The notes under the pieces are model-generated. The model had not been told where the DNA came from and made no database searches. It worked only from the letters and a program-made list of their open reading frames with translations. 41,893 bases of DNA from Bacteroidaceae bacterium (GTDB taxonomy: Bacteria > Bacteroidota > Bacteroidia > Bacteroidales > Bacteroidaceae): positions 1 through 41,893 of the forward strand of contig JAGCPY010000058.1 in the NCBI GenBank assembly GCA_017965425.1, in the 5' to 3' direction. The translations under genes were made by a program, and so were the position numbers. Positions 8,661 to 40,405 of this stretch are shown here, piece after piece. The stretch's first letter is position 1; each line of letters starts with the position of its first letter.

Positions 8661-11600
8661 ATGAAAAGACGTTTGACATTATTATCTTTGCTCTTAGCTG
8701 GATTTGCGCTAACAAGCTTTGCACAGACGTTGCCCACCTTCAGTACTGAAGGCAACGAGACGTGGTACATCATCCAGTTTCGCAACGGTGAAGCTGCCTT
8801 GCAAGACATGGGTGAAGCTGCCAATTTACAGACAGCGGGTGTTGACAAGAACAACAACGCACAACTTTGGAAATTGACTGGTACGCAGACAAATTGCGAG
8901 ATTATCAGCAAGGCTGGTCGCCACATCTATTTTAACGGCGAACGCTTTGCCGCTTCGACATCTCAGGCTGGTGGCTTGCAGCTGGTCAAATCAACCAACA
9001 CCACTTACAGCCCGGCATGGGAAATACAGACGACTTCTTCACCTGGCATGTCCATGAATCAGTGGGGCGGTGCTGGCGCTGGGCGTCAGTTGGGAGCGTG
9101 GAATGCGGGTGATCCTAACAATCCGTTGCTTTTCGTGGAGCCTGCTACATTGCCCGATACGGATCCTATGCCAACTCAATTAGCCGAATGGACGTGTGCG
9201 GCAAACAGCACCTATCGGCCAGCGGAACCTTTGACGCTTTGGTACACGCTTCCTGTGACCAAGCAGAATGTCACCGACCCTTGGATGGAATATGCCTTGC
9301 CCATTGGAAACGGACAATTGGGCGGAATGGTCTATGGAGGTATCCGGCAGGACATCCTTCAGTTCAACGAGAAGACTCTGTGGACAGGTTCTTCCACCGT
9401 CTATAACCGCGATGGCGGCTACCAAAACTTCGGGCATCTCTATATTGAGGATACCAGTAACCGATTCAGCACCACTTCCTCCAAAGGTGTGAAGGACTAC
9501 GTACGCACATTGGATTTAGCCGAAGCCGTGGCCACGGCAGAGTGGAAGAGTCCAGACAAGAGTGTCACATTCCGTCGTGAATACATTGCTTCCTATCCCG
9601 ACCAAGTGTTGGCCGTTCACTTGACAGCCAGCGAGCCTGGACAGTTAAGCCAACGCATCTATTTGTGGAATTCACATAACCTGCGTGGCAACTATGACGA
9701 CGGTGAAGGGACTTTTGCAGGTGCCTTGCAAACAGTATCTTACAATGCCCGCATGAAGGTGGTTGCCACGGGTGGAAGCTTGAAGACCGACGCGCAGGGC
9801 GTTCATGTCGAGAGTGCCGACGAGATTCTCATTGTGCTGTCTGCCATGACGGATTATGACCCCATTGCCAGCGGTTTCGTCAGCGGCACAGACCAACTTG
9901 CAGAACGGACAAAGATAATCGTGGATGCTGCTGCCGCCAAGGGTTGGGACGCTTTGCGCGCAGACCATGTAAGCGATTATAAAGCTTTCTTCGACCGTTG
10001 CCGTCTCAATATTTACGGAGCCACCAATACGAAGGCCACCAACAAGCTCATTGACAACTATGCCACACTCACATCCAAGACTGCCTTGCGACGTTCGGGT
10101 GACGCACGTATGCTTGAAAGTCTCTATTTCCACTATGGCCGCTACATGCTCATTGCCAGTTCACGAGGCATTGACCTGCCCAACAACCTGCAAGGCATTT
10201 GGAACCACAAGAACAACCCGCCTTGGTGCTCAGACATTCACGCCAACATCAACATCCAGATGAACTATTGGCCAGCCGAATCCACGGGTCTGCCGGAAAT
10301 GCACGAGAAGTATCTCAATTATCTTTATAACATGGCTGTCGTACAACCCGTGTGGAAGAACTACGCTACGGGTAATGGTAGCGACGGACGCTTCCTTCAC
10401 CATACGACGGGATGGGCGTGCTACACCGAGAACAATATCTTTGGTTGTTGCACCGACTGGATGGCAGCCAATTATCCGGAGGCTGGTGCTTGGAGTGTTG
10501 ATCACATGTGGCAGCATTACCGTTACACACTCGACCGCGACTTCTTGAAGAACAAAGCTCTGCCTGTGATGGTCTCTGCCACTAGCATGTGGATGGAACG
10601 TCTGAAGAAGGCCGACGATGGCACGTGGGAATGTCCTAATGAATTCTCGCCAGAGCATGGACCTACGGAGAATGCCACTGCTCATAGTCAGCAAATCGTG
10701 TGGAACCTTTTCGACCAGACGATCAAGGCCATCGAAATCATTGGCACGGCAGAAGCGGGTGTCACGGAAAGCTTCCTCAGACAGTTGAAGACGAAGTTTG
10801 CCAACCTCGATACGGGCTTACATACCGAGACCTATAAAGGTACTTTCGGTGCTACGCGCGAGGGTGTCAAGACAGGTGATGAAATCCTGCGAGAATGGAA
10901 GTACACCGATTATGCTAAAGGAAACGGCAACGAGTCCGGACACCGCCACCTATCCCACATGATGGCTCTTTATCCTTTTGCCAACTTGCCAGCCTCGAAT
11001 CCTTACTATGCTCCTGCCGTGCGCAGTCTGAAGCTTCGCGGTTTGGCTTCCACTGGATGGTCAATGGGTTGGAAGATGAACCTTTGGGCACGTGCATTGG
11101 AACCGGACCAGTGTGTAGAACTCTTCAAGCTGGAATTCAAGCACAGTACCAGCTATGGCACCGACCAATCGAAGGGCGGCGTTTACTATAACCTTTTCGA
11201 CTCCCATGCTCCTTTCCAGATTGACGGCAACTTTGGTGTTGCAGCCGGCATGGCGGAGATGCTTCTGCAAAGCCACACCGATACGCTCCAGCTGCTGCCT
11301 GCGCTACCTTATATCTGGACGAAAGGCAGCATTCATGGCCTTCGTGCCGTAGGCGGCTTTGAGGTTGACCAGACGTGGGAGGACAGCAAACTCACTACAG
11401 CTACCATCCACAGCTTGCGTGGACAGAACGCCCTTGTGGCATATCCTGGAATTGCCACTGCAACCATTAAAACTGTTCACGGTATGGACGTGACGCCCAC
11501 TGTAATCAGTCAAGACCGCATTGAATTTTCCACAACTGAGGGCGAAGCCTACGAAATCACCATGCCCACGGACGGCAATGCCGTAAAACCTCTTACCGCT

Positions 11601-11738
11601 CTTCCTTCCCCTGGCAATGGTCCTATTTACGACCTTGCCGGACGGCGGGTGGCTGACGAAAAGGAGGCTCTATCCCCAACAACAACTCCTGCCCACAAAG
11701 TGTATATACAAAGTGGGCAGAAGTTTATGATTCCGTAA
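8661..11738 (+). CDS. Exported GH95 family alpha-L-fucosidase
   Basis: The 1025-aa protein has a signal peptide ([20 protein letters not shown]), an N-terminal ricin/lectin-like domain (about 25-165), and from about residue 190 a GH95 enzyme: the N-terminal beta-sandwich opens with [17 protein letters not shown], and the (alpha/alpha)6 barrel follows. Catalytic positions of the family are intact: Asn529 and Asn531 in NINIQMNYW, Glu665 in [10 protein letters not shown], Asp855 in [10 protein letters not shown]95 enzymes remove alpha-1,2-fucose (some alpha-L-galactose) from host or plant glycans by inversion. The C-terminus carries a degenerate IYDLAGRRV...[12 protein letters not shown] tail like other exported proteins here. 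It is the last gene of the plus-strand run and ends at a hairpin at 11757-11824. Confidence 0.93.
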
Positions 11739-11756
11739 TTACATTCTTTCAAAACG

Positions 11757-11824
11757 AATTACACGGATTAGACGATTTACTTAGTCATCTGTCTGAATGG
11801 CTCATTCGTCTAATCCGTGTAATT
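11757..11824. repeat. Perfect 19-bp inverted repeat between convergent genes
   Basis: Arms 11757-11775 (AATTACACGGATTAGACGA) and 11806-11824 are exact complements with a 30-nt loop, placed between the stop codons of the fucosidase gene and nhaA. It could act as a bidirectional transcription stop although no long U-run follows. The arm motif resembles dispersed Bacteroidales repeats; that link is from memory. Confidence 0.8.
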
Positions 11825-11846
11825 TGTTGTCCGTACAATGCCGTCG

Positions 11847-13217
11847 TTATTCTGCGTTGGTTTTCGGCAATGTCTTGTTCAGCATCAAGCTACCCACAAG
11901 AGCCGAAGCCAATGTGCCGCAAAGAATACCCAGCTTCGCCTCGTTCAGCATCATCGCTGCATCCGTTCCCAGATGGGCTGGATAGCTAAGTGCAGCAATG
12001 AACATAGACACCGTGAAACCGATGCCGCATAACATGCAGACACTGGCCAGCGAATGCCAGTTGGCACCTTCGGGCATCTGACAGATCCCCAACTTAATCG
12101 ACAACCATGAGAAACTCAGTACGCCCGTGAACTTGCCAATCAGCAAACCAAGGAACACACCCAAAGCAACACCGTGGAACAGGTCAAGGAAGCTGAGGCC
12201 GCTGAAATCCACTCCTGCATTGGCAAATGCAAAGAGCGGGATAATGATGTAGTTAACGGGAACAGCCAGCTGGTCCTCGATATCCTGAAGCGGTGAGATA
12301 AGATAGTCCGATGCTTTCTCTATACGCCGCAACATCTGAATGTCTCCTTTGTCCAGAACCATCGCACGCCGCTGGTCTTCGGCATCCTCATTCGCGATGT
12401 CAGGATAAAGCCCCGTGATGCGGCGGATGCGTTGGAGATAATAGCGCGTACCTTTGCCCAGATTGGCAGGGATGCAGAAAGCCATCACCACACCCGCTAT
12501 TGTGGCATGGATGCCAGAATTCAGCACCATGAACCATAACACAAGTCCCAGAGACACATAGAATCCTTTTGCACGCACTTCCTTGAAGTTGCCAATCAAT
12601 AAAGCAGCTACCACAGCTACAGCACCCAGCAGATAAGGCCACGCAAGGCCTTGTGAGTAGAACAGAGCTATCACGATGATGCCACCTAAGTCATCGGCGA
12701 CCGCCAAAGCAGCCAGGAATATCTTTAACCCCACAGGAACGCGCTTACTGAAAAGAGACAGCACGCCCAGTGAGAAAGCGATGTCCGTTGCCATCGGAAT
12801 AGCGCAGCCACGTTCCATCAACGGATGACCCAGACAGACACAGAAGAACACGATGACGGGCACCAGCATACCGCCGCAGGCACCAATGACCGGGAGCAAG
12901 GCTTTTTGGCGAGTGGATAGCTCGCCGCACAGCACTTCACGCTTGATTTCCAACCCCACGCTCAGGAAGAAGTAGAACATGAGGAAGTCATTGATAAAAT
13001 CCATCAGCGACATGGCGTGGCCGCCGTGGCTGAAGACATTGAAACGGCCAATGCTCAACGAAACAGGTTGTTGCCACAGCGAAGCATAACCTTCGCGTGT
13101 GTCGGGCAAGTTGGCAAAAAGAAGTGCCAACACAGTTGCCGCAATCAGCAAAACGCTGGCACTGACATAGCGGCGGATGAGGCCGCCAAGAGAAGTGTTT
13201 GAAATATTCGATGCCAT
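11847..13217 (-). CDS. nhaA: Na+/H+ antiporter NhaA
   Basis: Inner-membrane protein that exchanges cytoplasmic sodium for protons, giving salt and alkaline pH tolerance. The 456-aa sequence is almost wholly hydrophobic with about 12 membrane segments. Diagnostic motifs are present: FFLSVGLEIKRE near the N-terminus, PMATDIAFSLGVL (the conserved Asp of TM4) and LAVADDLGGIIVIALFY, containing the paired Asp residues that bind Na+ in E. coli NhaA. GIHATIAGVVMAF is the conserved helix after the domain repeat. It is somewhat longer than the E. coli enzyme because of a loop of about 50 residues (RYYLQRIRRITGLYPDIAN...). It has its own promoter at 13252-13283. Confidence 0.96.
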   Translation of the reverse strand: MASNISNTSLGGLIRRYVSASVLLIAATVLALLFANLPDTREGYASLWQQPVSLSIGRFNVFSHGGHAMSLMDFINDFLMFYFFLSVGLEIKREVLCGELSTRQKALLPVIGACGGMLVPVIVFFCVCLGHPLMERGCAIPMATDIAFSLGVLSLFSKRVPVGLKIFLAALAVADDLGGIIVIALFYSQGLAWPYLLGAVAVVAALLIGNFKEVRAKGFYVSLGLVLWFMVLNSGIHATIAGVVMAFCIPANLGKGTRYYLQRIRRITGLYPDIANEDAEDQRRAMVLDKGDIQMLRRIEKASDYLISPLQDIEDQLAVPVNYIIIPLFAFANAGVDFSGLSFLDLFHGVALGVFLGLLIGKFTGVLSFSWLSIKLGICQMPEGANWHSLASVCMLCGIGFTVSMFIAALSYPAHLGTDAAMMLNEAKLGILCGTLASALVGSLMLNKTLPKTNAE

Positions 13218-35146: not shown

Positions 35147-35335
35147 TCATGATTCGTTCCTCAACTCCTGCTGCCTGATCACCTTCCGCAGGTACTCAAC
35201 CGCCTTGGGAGCCTCCTTGCGAGCGGCTTCCAACTTCTTGGCAAACTCCTCTTCTGGCATGTCAGAATTGAAATCCTCAACCAGCTCTCTCGGTTCGTTC
35301 GAAGTGTAAACCAAGACCAGTCCCTTCCTTTTCAT
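35147..35335 (-). pseudogene. Detached C-terminal part of the Pif1-like helicase
   Basis: This frame encodes 62 residues from ATG at 35335 (MKRKGLVLVYTSNEPREL...), rich in charged helix. It overlaps the helicase stop as TGATG. If one copy of the 17-bp duplication at 35356-35389 is removed, the helicase frame runs without a stop straight into it (…VRPKYNKGILSLRRLMKRKGLVLVY…). It is therefore best read as the original C-terminus of the helicase, cut off by a frameshift. It could still be translated separately through the TGATG overlap, but nothing marks it as an independent gene. Confidence 0.8.
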
Positions 35336-37176
35336 CAAACGACGCAGGGAAAGGATTCCCTTATTGTACTTGTTCCCTTATTGTACTTGGGTCTCACCCC
35401 CACGAGATGCTGCATCAGTTCAAGCCCCGGGTCGCCGATATGGAGCTCATTCAGCATCGCAATAGAATACAGCACTTTAGCGTCTGGCGTGTCCATGTCC
35501 AGCACGTTCCCCATCTGCACATTCACGGCATCGGCTTCCTCGTAACGCTCCATCAAAGTCAATGCGCGCGACTTCACATAAAGTGCTTCCTGACACAGGT
35601 GCAAGCTCAGTACGCGCTCCCCATACTCCAATGCCTGCTCATACTGCCCTGCATACAGGCTGAGCAAGGCCACGAGGAACTTTGAGGCCCAATGGTCCTG
35701 ATGCATCAGTTCCGACGGAACGCCATTGATACAACCCATAAGCTCATCGTCGCAGATGACTGTATCGAGAAAACGCTTTGCCTGCTGCATCGCTTCCTTG
35801 ATGTCACCTTCCAGTGCCTTTTTCTGAACGAGAAGGAGATACTGGTGTGCAGCTTCATCGTAGTCATGCTGATGCAGCAGTTCATAGACTGCCTTCCCGC
35901 TCTCTATCTCGCTCTTGATGGTTCGTTCGTCATTATACCCATTGGCATACGTCAGCACTTCCCTGCTGGTATGTGCATACTGAGGAATAATGTAACGGGA
36001 GAGAAACAGCCCTTGCAGCGAACGCACGCGGCTCAGGGCCACATAGAGCTGCCCTGCGGCAAACATGCCGCGACTCAGGTCGAGGGCCATTTTCTCAAAC
36101 GTCATGCCCTGGCTCTTGTGGACAGTGATGGCCCAAGCCAGTTTCAAGGGATACTGTGCAAACGTGCCGAGGACCTCCTTCTTCAGCTTCCGCTCCTTGC
36201 GGTCGTACTCGTAGCTGCAGGAATCCCATGAGCAGCAGGGAACCACGTAAGTCTCACCGCCATCCAGTGTCACCTGTATCTCGTCTTTCGAGAGCTTTGC
36301 CACCGTACCTATCGTCCCGTTGACCCAGCGCTTCTGCATGTCATTGCGGGTAAACATCACCTGAGCACCCACCTTCAGCCGAAGCTCCATCTCCACGGGC
36401 AACCGCTTCTCTTCGAAACGTCCCTGCACCGTACCTTCGTACGTGTACTCCTCTGCTTCTATCTCGGCCAGCCGCTTTTGGTTGATGGCATCTGCCGTGT
36501 CGTTGCGTGAGGTCAGCGTGATCACCATCCCGTCTTCTGCTGTTGGCTGACATACCCGGCTGTTCAGGTGCATCAGCGTTTCGGGTGTCACCCTGTTCAT
36601 TCGCACGTTCTCCAGGAGCTGCAAGAACTGCTCATCCTCCTGGCGGTACACCTTCTGGAACTCGATTTTCACCAGACGCATACGCTTGATGACATCTGCC
36701 TTATAGAAAAAGAAGTCATCCGTGTGGTAGAGGTCACGCATCAGTTCACGCTCCACTCCCTGCTTCACCACGGGTGGCAACTGAAACATATCGCCCACGA
36801 AGACGACTTGCTTCCCGCCGAAGGGAAGCGTCGTGTGCAGCGTCTTTCGCATCGTGTAGTCGATGGCATCGATGATGTCGCAGCGCACCATCGACACCTC
36901 ATCGATGATGATGGTGTCTGCATGCACCAGTGTCAGTATGCGTGCTTCGTTCATCTTGCCGCATGTTCCCGGAGGGCAAACCTCCATCGGCAGGCCGAAG
37001 AACGAATGGATGGTGTCACCTCCGGCAAGGATGGCGGCCACACCCGTCGGTGCCAGTGTGATGAACTGCTTGCCCACCATCTTCTGCACGTTATGCAAGA
37101 AGGTGGTCTTGCCCGTTCCAGCCCGTCCCGTGAGGAAGAAACTGGAGTTGGTGTTGGCCATCAGCTCGTAGGCCAA
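35335..37176 (-). CDS. Pif1-like AAA helicase with TPR region; damaged at both ends
   Basis: The 613-codon frame encodes an SF1B Pif1/RecD2-type helicase: Walker A GRAGTGKTT (about residues 17-25), Walker B IIIDEVSMV, motif III VGDMFQLPPVV, and motifs V-VI in AWAITVHKSQGMTF and GQLYVALSRVRSLQGL. From about residue 430 a helical TPR-like region follows. There is no ATG: the first possible starts are TTG at 37176 or ATT just downstream of the ptuB stop, although the coding sequence clearly extends up to that stop (KIDPENKQQQLAYEL). At the 3' end an exact 17-bp tandem duplication shifts the frame and replaces the natural C-terminus by TSTIRESFPCVV. The helicase motifs are intact, so partial function is possible, but I consider it a decaying gene. 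Confidence 0.85.
   Translation of the reverse strand: MAYELMANTNSSFFLTGRAGTGKTTFLHNVQKMVGKQFITLAPTGVAAILAGGDTIHSFFGLPMEVCPPGTCGKMNEARILTLVHADTIIIDEVSMVRCDIIDAIDYTMRKTLHTTLPFGGKQVVFVGDMFQLPPVVKQGVERELMRDLYHTDDFFFYKADVIKRMRLVKIEFQKVYRQEDEQFLQLLENVRMNRVTPETLMHLNSRVCQPTAEDGMVITLTSRNDTADAINQKRLAEIEAEEYTYEGTVQGRFEEKRLPVEMELRLKVGAQVMFTRNDMQKRWVNGTIGTVAKLSKDEIQVTLDGGETYVVPCCSWDSCSYEYDRKERKLKKEVLGTFAQYPLKLAWAITVHKSQGMTFEKMALDLSRGMFAAGQLYVALSRVRSLQGLFLSRYIIPQYAHTSREVLTYANGYNDERTIKSEIESGKAVYELLHQHDYDEAAHQYLLLVQKKALEGDIKEAMQQAKRFLDTVICDDELMGCINGVPSELMHQDHWASKFLVALLSLYAGQYEQALEYGERVLSLHLCQEALYVKSRALTLMERYEEADAVNVQMGNVLDMDTPDAKVLYSIAMLNELHIGDPGLELMQHLVGVRPKYNKGTSTIRESFPCVV
35356..35389. repeat. Exact 17-bp tandem duplication in the helicase gene
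   Basis: TTCCCTTATTGTACTTG occurs at 35356-35372 and again at 35373-35389 with no mismatch. Seventeen is not a multiple of three, so the duplication shifts the helicase frame. The absence of any difference between copies suggests a recent event, or an assembly artefact. Confidence 0.95.
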
Positions 37177-37209
37177 CTGCTGTTGCTTGTTCTCGGGGTC
37201 AATCTTGTT

Positions 37210-37860
37210 TTACGCAAACTGACGTAATTTCTTATTGAGATACCATATTACAACACCGCAGTACTCATGCAACTGTCCTTTCGCATTTCTTCCGCTGTAA
37301 TAAGAAATTTTGTGAACAATGTCGCTCTTCTTCCATGTCTTTCGCCCCATTTCCTTTACAAGTCCTTTTATTACAGCCAGTCTGTTTGCTGCCAGAATTG
37401 GATGGTTAAGATTGAGCACATTGTTGAGATCACTGTCATAAGTCTCATTCGAGGACTTAATGCTGCCGTCTTTCGACGAATATGATATAGTTGCTATTGC
37501 CACTGCTTCAAATGGTGTGAAATGAATTTCTTTCTCACCTTTGCTCGCGTCACAATGTAGATTCCGGCTCCCGTCAATGTCGCCGTTGCAGCACAAAATC
37601 ATATTCCCGTATGCCAGCGTCTCCTCTGGTTTCCCTTCTGACAAACTCAAAGTCCGTGGTTTTAGATGTTCAATGCGAGTATCCGTCTGTGTACCAGCAG
37701 CAAAACTTACGCGACGCATACAGTAGCCGCAAAGCCAGCCTTGCTCTTCTAAGAGTGCCAGACGCAAAGCGTCTTTATGAGTGGTTTCGTATGAGATACC
37801 TGGCGTATTCCTTTCTTCTGTCCACTCAGCAGGTTCCTTTCCTTTTGTAATCTTAATCAT
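37210..37860 (-). CDS. ptuB: Septu HNH endonuclease PtuB (TIGR02646-type)
   Basis: From the ATG at 37860 the protein has 216 residues. It is an HNH-type nuclease with zinc-binding Cys44 and Cys47 in CGYC, the HNH histidine His65 in RIEHLKPRT, Asn86 in YGNMILCCNGD, and a final HCDASKG motif (His102, Cys103). This order is that of PtuB of Septu and of the HNH effector found with some retrons. In Septu, PtuB cleaves nucleic acid on phage infection under control of PtuA. Its start overlaps the ptuA stop by 8 bp, indicating coupling. Its stop codon TAA stands directly in front of, and in the same frame as, the helicase coding sequence. No reverse transcriptase is present nearby, so it is a stand-alone Septu. 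Confidence 0.85.
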   Translation of the reverse strand: MIKITKGKEPAEWTEERNTPGISYETTHKDALRLALLEEQGWLCGYCMRRVSFAAGTQTDTRIEHLKPRTLSLSEGKPEETLAYGNMILCCNGDIDGSRNLHCDASKGEKEIHFTPFEAVAIATISYSSKDGSIKSSNETYDSDLNNVLNLNHPILAANRLAVIKGLVKEMGRKTWKKSDIVHKISYYSGRNAKGQLHEYCGVVIWYLNKKLRQFA

Positions 37861-39130
37861 CGCTCTCCAAATTGAAGTCCAACATCGTTCTGGCCTGAAT
37901 AATCTCTGGTAGCGAATTGCCAAATTCTTCCGTCATTTCGTTCAGTATGCCTTTGGCTTCTGGGTACCTTTCTGAATCTATCAAGTCAAACAGTTGTTTC
38001 AATTTTGCTTCGACCTCTGCCACTCGGGCTTTGCGTCCCATATACATTTCCAGAATCGTCGAGGCATCCAATCCGTATGTCGAAATAGGTGAAGCAGTAT
38101 AGACATTATTTTTATATTCGAGGTGAAGCACCTCGTTTTCAGAATTTGTCATCACGCTCGACATCACCATGGGGGCATGTGAACTCACGACGAATTGTAA
38201 TTCAGGGAATGTGGCGTGAAGCGATTTAAGTACTACCGACTGCAATTCAGGGTGCAGATGCTGGTCCACTTCGTCTATCAGCACCGTGCCAGAAGTATGG
38301 TTGCAGCAATCTACACCATATTTCTTTCCATTCAGCAGACAGCATCGAATCGACAAATCCGTTACAATGTTCACCAGCCGTTTGTAACCATCCGATAGGT
38401 TAGAGGCTTCCACCTCCCTTCCGTCAACATAGTGAAAGAACACCTTCTTCTTCATCGGACGTATCGACATCCCGCTGATAATGTTACACCCATCAGGTCC
38501 AAGAGCCTTCGCAATGGCATTCTGCACCACGTCTATCTCCATCAAAGACTTCTGACCCTCAGCCAGCACCAGGAGCCGGTACATCCAGTAGTCAAAGAAG
38601 CCGTCGCCTTGCAAGCACTCGTAATATCCAAACGAACGTGGCTGATAATATTTGGCGAAGACTGATTTGTCCAGTTTCCTCGTACTGTGTATGTCTTCAG
38701 TAGAAAAAGCAGCGAACAGCGGTAAAGCTATGCTACCGTCATCCTTGGCTGCCAATTTCTGATACAACTCTTTCGCTGCATCACGCAGTGGCTTGATTCC
38801 CACAATAGAGGTGCTGTTCTTCTTCCCAGAACGCGATAAGACAAGATGGCCGGAATCCGAAAACTCATATTCAATAACTACTGGTCGCTCCAAAGACTCT
38901 GTATCGTTGGTGACTTCACTCATAAAGTCACCGTTCCCTATGCCGATGAAGCGTGTGTTGGCATCTGAAAAACCAGAGAAAAAAGAACTCATGGCAATCT
39001 TCATTCCACGTAGTATAGTGGTCTTGCCACTTCCATTTGCTCCGAATAGCAGGTTTACTCCTTTCCTGAAGCCCAACCTGTAGTTTTCAAAGCACCTAAA
39101 ATTCGAAAACTCCAAATTTGTTAGTTTCAT
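37853..39130 (-). CDS. ptuA: Septu ATPase PtuA (SMC/ABC-like AAA ATPase)
   Basis: From the ATG at 39130 the protein has 425 residues and begins MKLTNLEFSNFRCFENYRL, the standard opening of OLD/RecF-like ATPases. Walker A is GANGSGKTT at residues 30-38, the ABC signature is LSDGYKRLV, Walker B is TVLIDEVDQHLHPE with Asp286-Glu287, and the H-loop is FVVSSHAPMV. There is no Toprim domain, which separates it from OLD nucleases and fits PtuA. It would sense infection and control PtuB. The start is supported by AAGGAG placed 7 nt upstream, a Shine-Dalgarno rarely used in this phylum. An upstream ATG at 39202 is less likely. Base composition is lower in GC than the flanking core genes. Confidence 0.85.
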   Translation of the reverse strand: MKLTNLEFSNFRCFENYRLGFRKGVNLLFGANGSGKTTILRGMKIAMSSFFSGFSDANTRFIGIGNGDFMSEVTNDTESLERPVVIEYEFSDSGHLVLSRSGKKNSTSIVGIKPLRDAAKELYQKLAAKDDGSIALPLFAAFSTEDIHSTRKLDKSVFAKYYQPRSFGYYECLQGDGFFDYWMYRLLVLAEGQKSLMEIDVVQNAIAKALGPDGCNIISGMSIRPMKKKVFFHYVDGREVEASNLSDGYKRLVNIVTDLSIRCCLLNGKKYGVDCCNHTSGTVLIDEVDQHLHPELQSVVLKSLHATFPELQFVVSSHAPMVMSSVMTNSENEVLHLEYKNNVYTASPISTYGLDASTILEMYMGRKARVAEVEAKLKQLFDLIDSERYPEAKGILNEMTEEFGNSLPEIIQARTMLDFNLESDD

Positions 39131-39136
39131 TTTATC

Positions 39137-39142
39137 TCCTTG
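39137..39142 (-). promoter_or_regulatory. Shine-Dalgarno sequence of ptuA
   Basis: On the minus strand AAGGAG precedes ATG with the spacer ATAAA. Hardly any other gene in the window has such a site, so it both fixes the start at 39130 and hints at a foreign origin of the module. Confidence 0.7.
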
Positions 39143-39181
39143 TTGATACAATAAGTGCAAAATCAGCCATTTTTGCGTATT

Positions 39182-39222
39182 CCGGCGATAGCCGTTCACC
39201 AATTCCGATAATCGCCGTTCAC
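39182..39222. repeat. Tandem 18-bp direct repeat in the Septu leader
   Basis: CCGGCGATAGCCGTTCAC (39182-39199) and CCGATAATCGCCGTTCAC (39205-39222) recur with a 23-bp period, about 55 bp upstream of the ptuA start and downstream of its -7 box. The placement suits a repressor-binding site or a leader RNA structure; both are inference. Confidence 0.6.
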
Positions 39223-39249
39223 TCGGTTGGTGATTTACTCTATCGGCTG

Positions 39250-39257
39250 CAAAGTTA
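39250..39257 (-). promoter_or_regulatory. Putative -7 box for the Septu operon
   Basis: TAACTTTG on the minus strand fits TAnnTTTG. TTTG occurs only 12 nt upstream, too close for the consensus. The leader would be about 115 nt and contains the tandem repeat at 39182-39222. Confidence 0.5.
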
Positions 39258-39533
39258 ATACTTTTTTCTCAAACTGTCTCCAGAAAGCAAAAATCTTTTT
39301 GATTTATGAACTAATCTGTAGAGGCAAGCCTCGGCTATCAGCTCGCTCCCGAACACATTGTACCAGTCAGCGACAGGCAGCTGACTTTCTTCCTCCCGAC
39401 AGTTCAAAAAGTTTTTCACATTTTTGCCCGTCCTTTCACTTTTCGCTATAACGCACTGAACAACAGTTAATTTGAGTAAGTGAAAGGTAATTCCGTCCTT
39501 TCACTTTTTGACCTTTTCAAGGTGTTTATTTGA

Positions 39534-39765
39534 AAAATGCCCAGACAAACTCAACCGTGGGGACATCCTGGCCATCGACAGGGCTTACATCGACTATGCC
39601 AAGTTCGAGGAGATGTCGCAGTGTGGCGTCATTTACGTGACCAAGATGAAGCAGAACCTCACGTATGAGTGGCCGGACAGAAAGCAGGATGCAGAAGTAA
39701 AACAACTTGTTTTACCTCCAAAGAACACGTCGCATCGCACGAAAGGGTATGCCATTCTACGGTAA
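39534..39765 (+). pseudogene. Internal fragment of an IS4-type transposase
   Basis: The frame reads PDKLNRGDILAIDRAYIDYAKFEEMSQCGVIYVTKMKQNLTYEW, which matches the middle of IS4-family DDE transposases of Bacteroidetes, with the second catalytic Asp in AIDRAYIDY. About 80 residues remain, against roughly 350-400 in an intact enzyme. The first and third catalytic residues are missing. The fragment is interrupted by the palindrome at 39697-39717 (read as VKQLVLPP) and ends after KNTSHRTKGYAILR. It is a dead remnant. Confidence 0.8.
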
Positions 39766-40027: not shown

Positions 40028-40123
40028 CTACTTCTTGCCTGCGAAGTAGCCTGCTATTGCGGTGCCAATGGCCGATGCAATTGCACCGATGAGCATCCAG
40101 CGTTCTTTTTCTGCTTCTGTCAT
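40028..40123 (-). CDS. 31-aa single-pass membrane peptide
   Basis: The ATG at 40123 opens a 31-codon frame: MTEAEKERWMLIGAIASAIG followed by TAIAGYFAGKK. It has a charged N-terminus, a Gly/Ala-rich hydrophobic helix of about 19 residues and a Lys-Lys end, the pattern of small membrane peptides such as holin-like or type I toxin peptides. It is supported by its own promoter (TACCTTTG at 40206-40199) and an ordered start and stop. I do not recognise the family; function is unknown. Confidence 0.55.
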   Translation of the reverse strand: MTEAEKERWMLIGAIASAIGTAIAGYFAGKK

Positions 40124-40157
40124 GGTTTTCGATGTTTTTAAGGTTCCCGCCACTAAG

Positions 40158-40202
40158 TTTGCAGCGCCAATCCCGGGGTGGTTTCGAGTTTGACGCTGCA
40201 AA
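40158..40202. repeat. 9-bp inverted repeat at the promoter of the 31-aa gene
   Basis: TTTGCAGCG (40158-40166) and CGCTGCAAA (40194-40202) are perfect inverted copies. The right arm overlaps the -7 box at 40199-40206, so the pair could be a regulator-binding site or form a hairpin in the 5' end of the transcript. Confidence 0.6.
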
Positions 40203-40206
40203 GGTA
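40199..40206 (-). promoter_or_regulatory. Putative -7 box for the 31-aa peptide gene
   Basis: TACCTTTG on the minus strand fits TAnnTTTG. The upstream box is only CTTTC at the expected distance. The leader would be about 70 nt. Confidence 0.5.
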
Positions 40207-40238
40207 CGCCGAGATTCTGAAGTGTGAAAGAATTATCT

Positions 40239-40279
40239 CCTCGCAGATGGTTCCGTTCTACTTGGAACCGTTTTTAGCC
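40239..40279. repeat. Dispersed hairpin repeat, copy B
   Basis: CCTCGCAGATGGTTCC... with perfect GGTTCC and GGAACC arms and a following GTTTTT matches copy A at 34895-34940. On the plus strand it has the form of a short terminator. It lies directly beside the CRISPR-like repeats. Confidence 0.65.
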
Positions 40280-40293
40280 CTCCATAGATTGAA

Positions 40294-40405
40294 GTATTGT
40301 AATCCTTGTTAATGGAAGATGCTCTCTAAGAAGGCACCCGCTACAGTGTGTCAGCCGGTTTCGGCGGAGTCTTAATCCTTGTTGTAATAGAAGATGCTCT
40401 CTAAG
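40294..40405 (+). CRISPR. Degenerate CRISPR-like mini-array (two repeats, one spacer)
   Basis: Two 37-nt repeats at 40294-40330 and 40369-40405 share TAATCCTTGTT and GAAGATGCTCTCTAAG; the first lacks two bases in the middle (…GTTAATGGAAG versus GTTGTAATAGAAG) and differs in the first positions. They enclose a unique 38-nt segment (40331-40368). Repeat and spacer lengths are those of a CRISPR unit, and the repeat resembles Bacteroidetes type I/III repeats as I remember them. No further repeat is found on either side and no cas gene lies in the window, so it would be a relic or orphan. Confidence 0.6.

Follow-up and report, generated by a model that had tools for sequence, protein, structure and literature searches.

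How does an anti-phage gene pair come to end directly against a helicase gene that has no start codon, and does the helicase belong to the defence? Both questions are raised by a locus in the DNA of a Bacteroidaceae bacterium, referred to here as the window (the whole stretch of DNA analysed, 41,893 nucleotides long), where ptuA and ptuB of the Septu system lie between a helicase and the leader that precedes this helicase in related genomes (Table 1).

Table 1. Positions of the elements of the locus in the window.
Element	Position	Strand	Description
17-nt perfect tandem duplication	35356..35389	-	Shifts the frame; last ~65 residues of the helicase in another frame
Pif1-family (BsPif1-like) SF1B helicase body	35335..37209	-	No start codon; C-terminus closes early
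Junction	37207..37214	-	ptuB stop fused to helicase codon 3 (L089/L090 numbering)
ptuB	37210..37860	-	HNH nuclease of Septu, 216 aa, 8-nt overlap with ptuA, intact
ptuA	37853..39130	-	Septu ATPase of the SMC/ABC type, 425 aa, begins with ATG, intact
IS21-type element end fragment	39173..39377		Abuts the ptuA leader
DDE transposase fragment, presumably of IS4 type	39540..39669	+	PF01609, E=0.0015, below gathering score
31-aa ORF (MTEAEKERW...)	40031..40123	-	ATG, directly behind the leader; may be spurious
Helicase-operon promoter (TAnnTTTG) and hairpin leader	40133..40276	-	Core 40206-40133
Two degenerate CRISPR repeats and one spacer	40297..40405	-	CRISPR-DR7, 21.1 bits, below gathering 37

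The pair is a type I Septu

The initial annotation had proposed a Septu-like pair and a search against Septu profiles, and that search identified both proteins: PtuA matched the PADLOC profile of the type I ATPase (PDLC00272 PtuA1, E=5.6e-157) and PtuB that of the type I HNH protein (PDLC00322 PtuB1, E=6.6e-63). The best relative of PtuA in the PDB was PtuA 8ee4 (1.6e-31); PtuB gave no PDB sequence match at E≤0.01 and no Pfam match, and reached 40.8 bits against TIGR02646, under the cut-off of 52.15. Both frames are free of internal stops. The ATG of ptuA at 39130 is preceded by AAGGAGATAAA and its stop occupies 37855-37853; ptuB begins with an ATG at 37860, inside the end of ptuA, and closes with a TAA at 37212-37210, an overlap that bears out the proposed two-gene module. 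The genes are adjacent and co-directional, as type I Septu has them. In PtuA, the Walker A (GANGSGKTT) and Walker B (LIDEVD) motifs keep their core residues in all five aligned proteins; likewise, H65, N86, H102, C44 and C47 do not vary in five of five aligned PtuB. In the account of Septu EcB88, the Walker and HNH residues K43, D316, H75 and N91 are needed for defence (PMC13096335); the corresponding residues here, matched by motif and not by alignment, are invariant. With dN/dS at 0.05-0.10 ptuAB is, as judged from its codons, under purifying selection, and the low ratio together with the intact motifs suggests that the pair is functional now or was until recently. The window pair thus resembles type I Septu in its two overlapping genes, its ABC/SMC-type ATPase and HNH protein and its retained motifs, and differs in lying inside a hotspot of WYL gene, leader and helicase. 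It is also homologous to the ATPase and HNH pair that forms the PtuAB effector of retron Ec78 (type I-A), but both proteins scored under the curated NCBIfam cut-offs (PtuA 190 vs 500; PtuB 73.5 vs 150), and no type I-A reverse transcriptase lies next to ptuAB, the genome's one RVT_1 match being on contig C1 with none on C52; for a retron msr-msd, coverage was that of the Rfam scan.

Among the 139 genus genomes, 11 (counting the window genome itself) had a PtuA match at E≤0.001, the best non-self match having 29% identity over residues 2-409; PtuB matched in 6 of the 399 family genomes, again counting its own, and in two of these only at E near 1e-3. A PtuA scan of genome contigs gave five loci, of which two, L089 in Prevotella sp. 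UBA3837 (90%) and L090 in Prevotellaceae RUG414 (89%), are the only close ptuAB relatives found; identity to two other PtuAB pairs from the family is 44-50%. Kin of PtuB in plasmid and phage collections appeared only at <35% identity (4 of 72,556 and 4 of 50,697 records), so these collections point to no vehicle. Among the other pairs, ptuA of G242 (L116 2338-559) is spread over several frames and looks broken, and PtuAB of L115 (5307-7339) is flanked by genes that by eye resemble type I restriction-modification subunits.

The helicase has lost its start

After the ptuB TAA the same frame continues with AAC AAG ATT GAC CCC GAG AAC AAG CAA and runs for 624 codons without an internal stop, reading as a Pif1/RecD2-like helicase. 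The intact orthologue in L089 matched PDB entries 8bnv (4.7e-101) and 5ftb (5.1e-93), and its core aligns from residue 1 with 5ftb, which we take to be BsPif1. In this it resembles BsPif1-type helicases, from which it differs by a longer C-terminal extension and by its linkage to the hotspot; the window copy differs further in having neither start nor C-terminus. Orthologues were found in six other genus genomes (60-77% identity) and, at E≤1e-190, in 16 of 399 genomes of the family sample (own included); the family-sample matches, G032 and the two close genomes (L089, L090) make up the 18 other orthologous loci compared below.

All 14 starts examined among these loci have an in-frame ATG within ~10 codons before a conserved ID..N..QQ stretch. 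In the window the first ATG, GTG or TTG of the frame is the TTG at 37176 (codon 12) and the first ATG stands at 37161 (codon 17). The initial annotation had read the codons behind ptuB as a helicase beginning without a start codon, and this is what is found: the helicase start is truly lost. Its placement of the junction close to that start was likewise accurate, to within two codons. Since the start is lost and the 17-nt duplication frameshifts the C-terminus, the window helicase, which has neither the start codon nor the intact frame of a functional Pif1 gene, is probably dead. Translation from codon 12 or 17 is conceivable; the shorter protein would lack the N-terminal stretch that is aligned to the first BsPif1 residues and presumably holds the Q motif. 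The PtuB-helicase fusion by read-through that had been envisaged would probably be of little consequence, given the additional frameshift close to the C-terminus of the helicase; for coupled or read-through translation the frame offers no ATG, GTG or TTG ahead of codon 12. Three of the 18 other loci have broken or short helicases, namely G112 (frameshift), G433 (internal TAA) and G286 (ending near residue 618 of 686). With the copy of G040, the copies L037 (G112), L125 (G433), L124 (G286) and L112 (G040) are frameshifted, interrupted, short or partial, and loss of this helicase recurs across loci.

The helicase leader lies on the far side of the pair

When the window was compared by BLAST with the orthologous loci, the region just 5' of the helicase in G032, G015, G099 and G112 matched window positions 40136-40276, ~2.9 kb upstream of the helicase body. 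In these four relatives and in G286 the leader directly precedes the helicase, so in the window ptuAB sits between the helicase leader and the helicase. The five loci, with the helicase start joined to the leader, also provide the empty site by which an insertion was to be recognised. The idea of an insertion into the helicase gene stands in so far as the pair separates leader from body, but not as a recent entry into a gene without ties to the pair: ptuAB is one of several cargoes of the locus and lies three genes upstream of the same helicase in L089 and L090. The bounds first given to the insertion needed moving: 37204 is already five bases inside the helicase frame, and the displaced stretch ends upstream near 40133, beside the helicase leader, not at 39257. 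A leader of its own can be granted to ptuAB near ptuA, where homology to the ptuA leaders of relatives stops at 39147 (L089) or 39173 (L090); the sequence beyond resembles insertion-sequence fragments. The L090 homology ends exactly where that to the IS21-type end begins. This end fragment has several copies in G120 and G075 and stands at contig ends in G032 and G075, and IstA/IstB-like ORFs (named by eye) adjoin its copies L156 and L160. The degenerate CRISPR repeats are similar (by eye) to arrays at the same locus in L090 and in L117, where array, leader, the genes X1 and X2, and helicase follow in succession.

The promoter box TAnnTTTG, presumably of the Bacteroidetes type, is present in 15 of 15 aligned leaders. 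The hairpin has changes on both sides in 5 of its 16 pairs, and 7 of the 16 never vary; its covariation score was matched by none of 500 shuffles, a score that related sequences can give too. Sliding the hairpin partner by 1-3 columns abolished the covariation; in 7 of 15 sequences two inner pairs do not hold. The leader pattern was found in the window and in 14 of 18 other hotspot genomes (absent: G208, G424, G433, G159), and in none of 23 other loci. In the 139 genus genomes, scanned under stricter filters with 34 candidates scored per genome, a covariance model of the leader matched at E≤1e-17 in seven, once each, all seven carrying this helicase; the window genome has a single copy. The model also gives a weak match on the opposite strand of the same palindrome. 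Because these same sites went into the model, what counts is the absence of any close rival: the next best match in the genus reaches 34 bits, and matches of 34 bits or less do exist. A general dispersed promoter element, the other identity considered for the leader, is disfavoured in this genus, where strong sites number seven across the 139 genomes.

The window copy of the leader matched no Rfam family at E≤5, and the element may be a new structured leader or the operator of a regulator. BrxR-type WYL proteins are reported to bind inverted repeats at promoters (PMC9122601), so by analogy the palindrome might act as an operator as well as a hairpin in the RNA. In most copies, judged by eye, the loop reads ACCACC and is the complement of a GGUGG further downstream. 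The small ORF behind the leader has no relative in the loci compared and no Pfam family.

A recurrent locus with changing cargo

In L089 and L090 the order is ptuA-ptuB-WYL-leader-X1-X2-helicase. A WYL gene lies upstream of the helicase in 13 of the 16 orthologous loci with upstream sequence; it is absent in G394, G208 (3.8 kb before X1 covered) and G159, the contigs of G286 and G433 end too soon for them to be counted, and adjacency in G120 is deduced from a WYL gene on a separate contig, which starts immediately beyond the leader. Of the 18 loci, 13 have X1-X2. At E≤1e-6, WYL, X1 and X2 were all absent from the 21 paralogous helicase loci with 8-10 kb of upstream sequence. The WYL gene precedes the cargo in G032, G015, G105, G099 and G112 and follows it in L089, L090, G218, G371, G502, G424 and G171; there are several kinds of it, with ~30-44% identity between groups, so the linkage need not be one inherited unit. 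X1 and X2 have no Pfam match, and an AlphaFold2 model of X2 (mean pLDDT 69.9, four sequences) gave no PDB match at E≤0.001. The window has no WYL gene, and WYL kin elsewhere in its genome are 27-35% identical; X1-X2 were not found elsewhere in that genome, in a search run without a positive control.

Besides L089 and L090, 12 of the 16 loci with upstream sequence carry cargo-like genes, and G120 and G208 have no recognisable cargo. The cargo includes a YhcG-type nuclease (PDC-S02) in G032, G099 and G112, NsnB-like AAA_15 ATPases in G105 and G099, AbiLi/AbiLii in G159 and type III CRISPR genes in G394; L090 also has a Csx1 gene upstream of ptuA. STAND- or ATPase_2-like giants occur in L089, G218, G371, G502 and G424, and as such pass Pfam cut-offs only in G371, that of G218 passing them only for zinc ribbons. 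PADLOC profiles run on 28 cargo proteins, a part of the cargo genes of these loci, gave clear matches for 11, spread over 7 of the 18 loci, and marginal matches (E 1e-5 to 8e-4) for 3, while 14 had no match; in G015, G171 and some of the remaining loci the label "defence" thus rests on neighbourhood. Giants of 1406-1701 aa, STAND- or ATPase-like, are encoded at L118 2361-7007, L119 1939-7044, L120 7867-12087, L122 3361-7695 and L089 1551-5891; with no or marginal PADLOC matches, they are candidate defence proteins. At L033 4510-8374, L123 1253-4275 and L037 9404-11718 a larger protein is paired with a response-regulator-like protein (by eye); these pairs lie near the WYL gene and helicase and have no PADLOC match, and that of L033 contains a HATPase_c domain.

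The same neighbours thus accompany different defence cargo, and by its gene content the locus is a Prevotellaceae defence hotspot whose recurrent parts are the WYL gene, the promoter and hairpin leader, X1-X2 and the Pif1-family helicase. Titles and abstract starts of the open-licence literature contained no description of it. It shares with the islands associated with WYL regulators (BrxR/CapW) a WYL-domain regulator beside changing defence systems (PMC9122601), and differs in the recurrence of X1-X2 and a Pif1-family helicase downstream of a conserved hairpin leader. The main text of the BrxR paper (PMC9122601) uses none of the words Septu, Bacteroidetes, Bacteroidota and hotspot.

Synonymous divergence between L089 and L090 was 0.54 for ptuA (bootstrap 0.44-0.65) and 0.54 for ptuB (0.43-0.65), against 1.02 for the helicase (0.87-1.23), 1.18 for X1 (0.73-1.86), 0.78 for X2 (0.56-1.10, an interval that overlaps that of ptuAB) and 2.37 for WYL (1.41-3.62; 44 of 60 replicates finite), values near or above 1 being saturated. 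The window compared with L089/L090 gave 0.63/0.54 for ptuA, 0.66/0.88 for ptuB and 1.23/1.52 for the helicase. This suggests that ptuAB moves between alleles; more constrained codons in ptuAB may also account for its lower dS. Given the lower dS, the sparse PtuAB matches and PtuAB pairs elsewhere without WYL or helicase, ptuAB would seem to be mobile cargo, and the helicase a component of the locus. The tree of the helicases has little resolution (2 of 13 inner branches starred); genera are intermingled in it, and the window copy does not cluster with L089/L090. This agrees with exchange without proving it.

How the window arrangement arose

We consider it probable that a type I Septu cassette in this hotspot was rearranged and so ended up separating the helicase from its leader. 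This view is built on the positions, the homologies, the lost start, the frameshift and a synonymous divergence that is lower for ptuAB than for the genes around it. In the likeliest order and mechanism of events, the start would have been an L117-like locus (array, leader, X1, X2, helicase), in which the X1-X2 slot and the first helicase codons were replaced by insertion-sequence fragments and by ptuAB from an L089/L090-like allele. A rearrangement next to the IS21/IS4-like fragments would have put ptuAB between leader and helicase; X1, X2, the first helicase codons and the WYL gene (if once present) would have gone, and the ptuB stop would have been fused to helicase codon 3. This may have happened in a single step, or a longer cassette may first have been acquired and then trimmed by deletion. 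The genomes compared include no intermediate form, so that an insertion behind the leader and a wider acquisition with later deletion fit equally well. A shorter path would be a simple deletion, by which an ancestor with the L089/L090 order lost everything between ptuB and helicase codon 3, and the window does align with L089 5979-7920 and then at once with 10065-12069. This would leave the single-copy helicase leader upstream of ptuA unexplained, requiring a second, since-lost leader copy, and would account neither for the insertion-sequence fragments nor for the L117-like order of CRISPR array and leader. We regard it as unlikely, though realistic; it shares most facts with the rearranged cassette and differs in history, so the likelihoods of the two overlap.

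That an assembly chimera or strain mixture joined ptuAB to the helicase is improbable. The assembly of the window genome has 96 contigs, genomes differ in their hotspot alleles, the insertion-sequence fragment lies at contig ends in two relatives, and the junction string was absent from viral contigs and the junction from every other genome searched, all of which would fit an artefact; but segment 39140-40030 is single copy in the window genome, and the independent 17-nt duplication fits a gene already out of use, although it could be an assembly error too. Less credible still is an ancestral three-gene Septu variant, ptuA-ptuB-helicase, with the helicase translated by coupling to ptuB and serving defence. 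The same helicase does lie downstream of ptuAB in L089 and L090, but three genes separate them there, 14 other loci with upstream sequence have the helicase without ptuAB (12 of these with other cargo), and the window helicase has no start and is frameshifted. The initial annotation had held that finding the same gene order in many genomes would argue for such a system. What is found instead is helicase with other cargo and PtuAB with no such helicase or WYL gene nearby, in the pairs L114 and L115, at the distant ATPase loci L091-L093 and at the fragmented, partly covered pair L116 (0.5 kb downstream covered); on this comparison, the helicase is not a Septu subunit.

What the locus may mean

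If the rearranged cassette works as E. coli Septu does, PtuA would control PtuB upon infection, host tRNA would be cut and phage growth stopped, and the window pair would do so without help from the helicase; Septu EcB88 is described as cutting tRNA-Tyr in the variable loop (PMC13096335). A broader reading, which we offer tentatively, is that WYL gene, leader RNA, X1-X2 and Pif1 helicase form a regulated chassis that exchanges cassettes (Septu, STAND-like ATPases, YhcG nucleases, AbiL, type III CRISPR), the leader being its regulatory or exchange point and the helicase an active partner in defence or in cassette turnover. In the window such a chassis would have collapsed and left Septu on its own.

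What appeared as an odd gene fusion becomes a readable snapshot of the movement of a defence cassette. It points to a recurrent hotspot in the Prevotellaceae, with a frame of regulator, leader and helicase, whose conserved leader may control it and which is a source of candidate defence genes, among them STAND-like giants and paired unknown genes.
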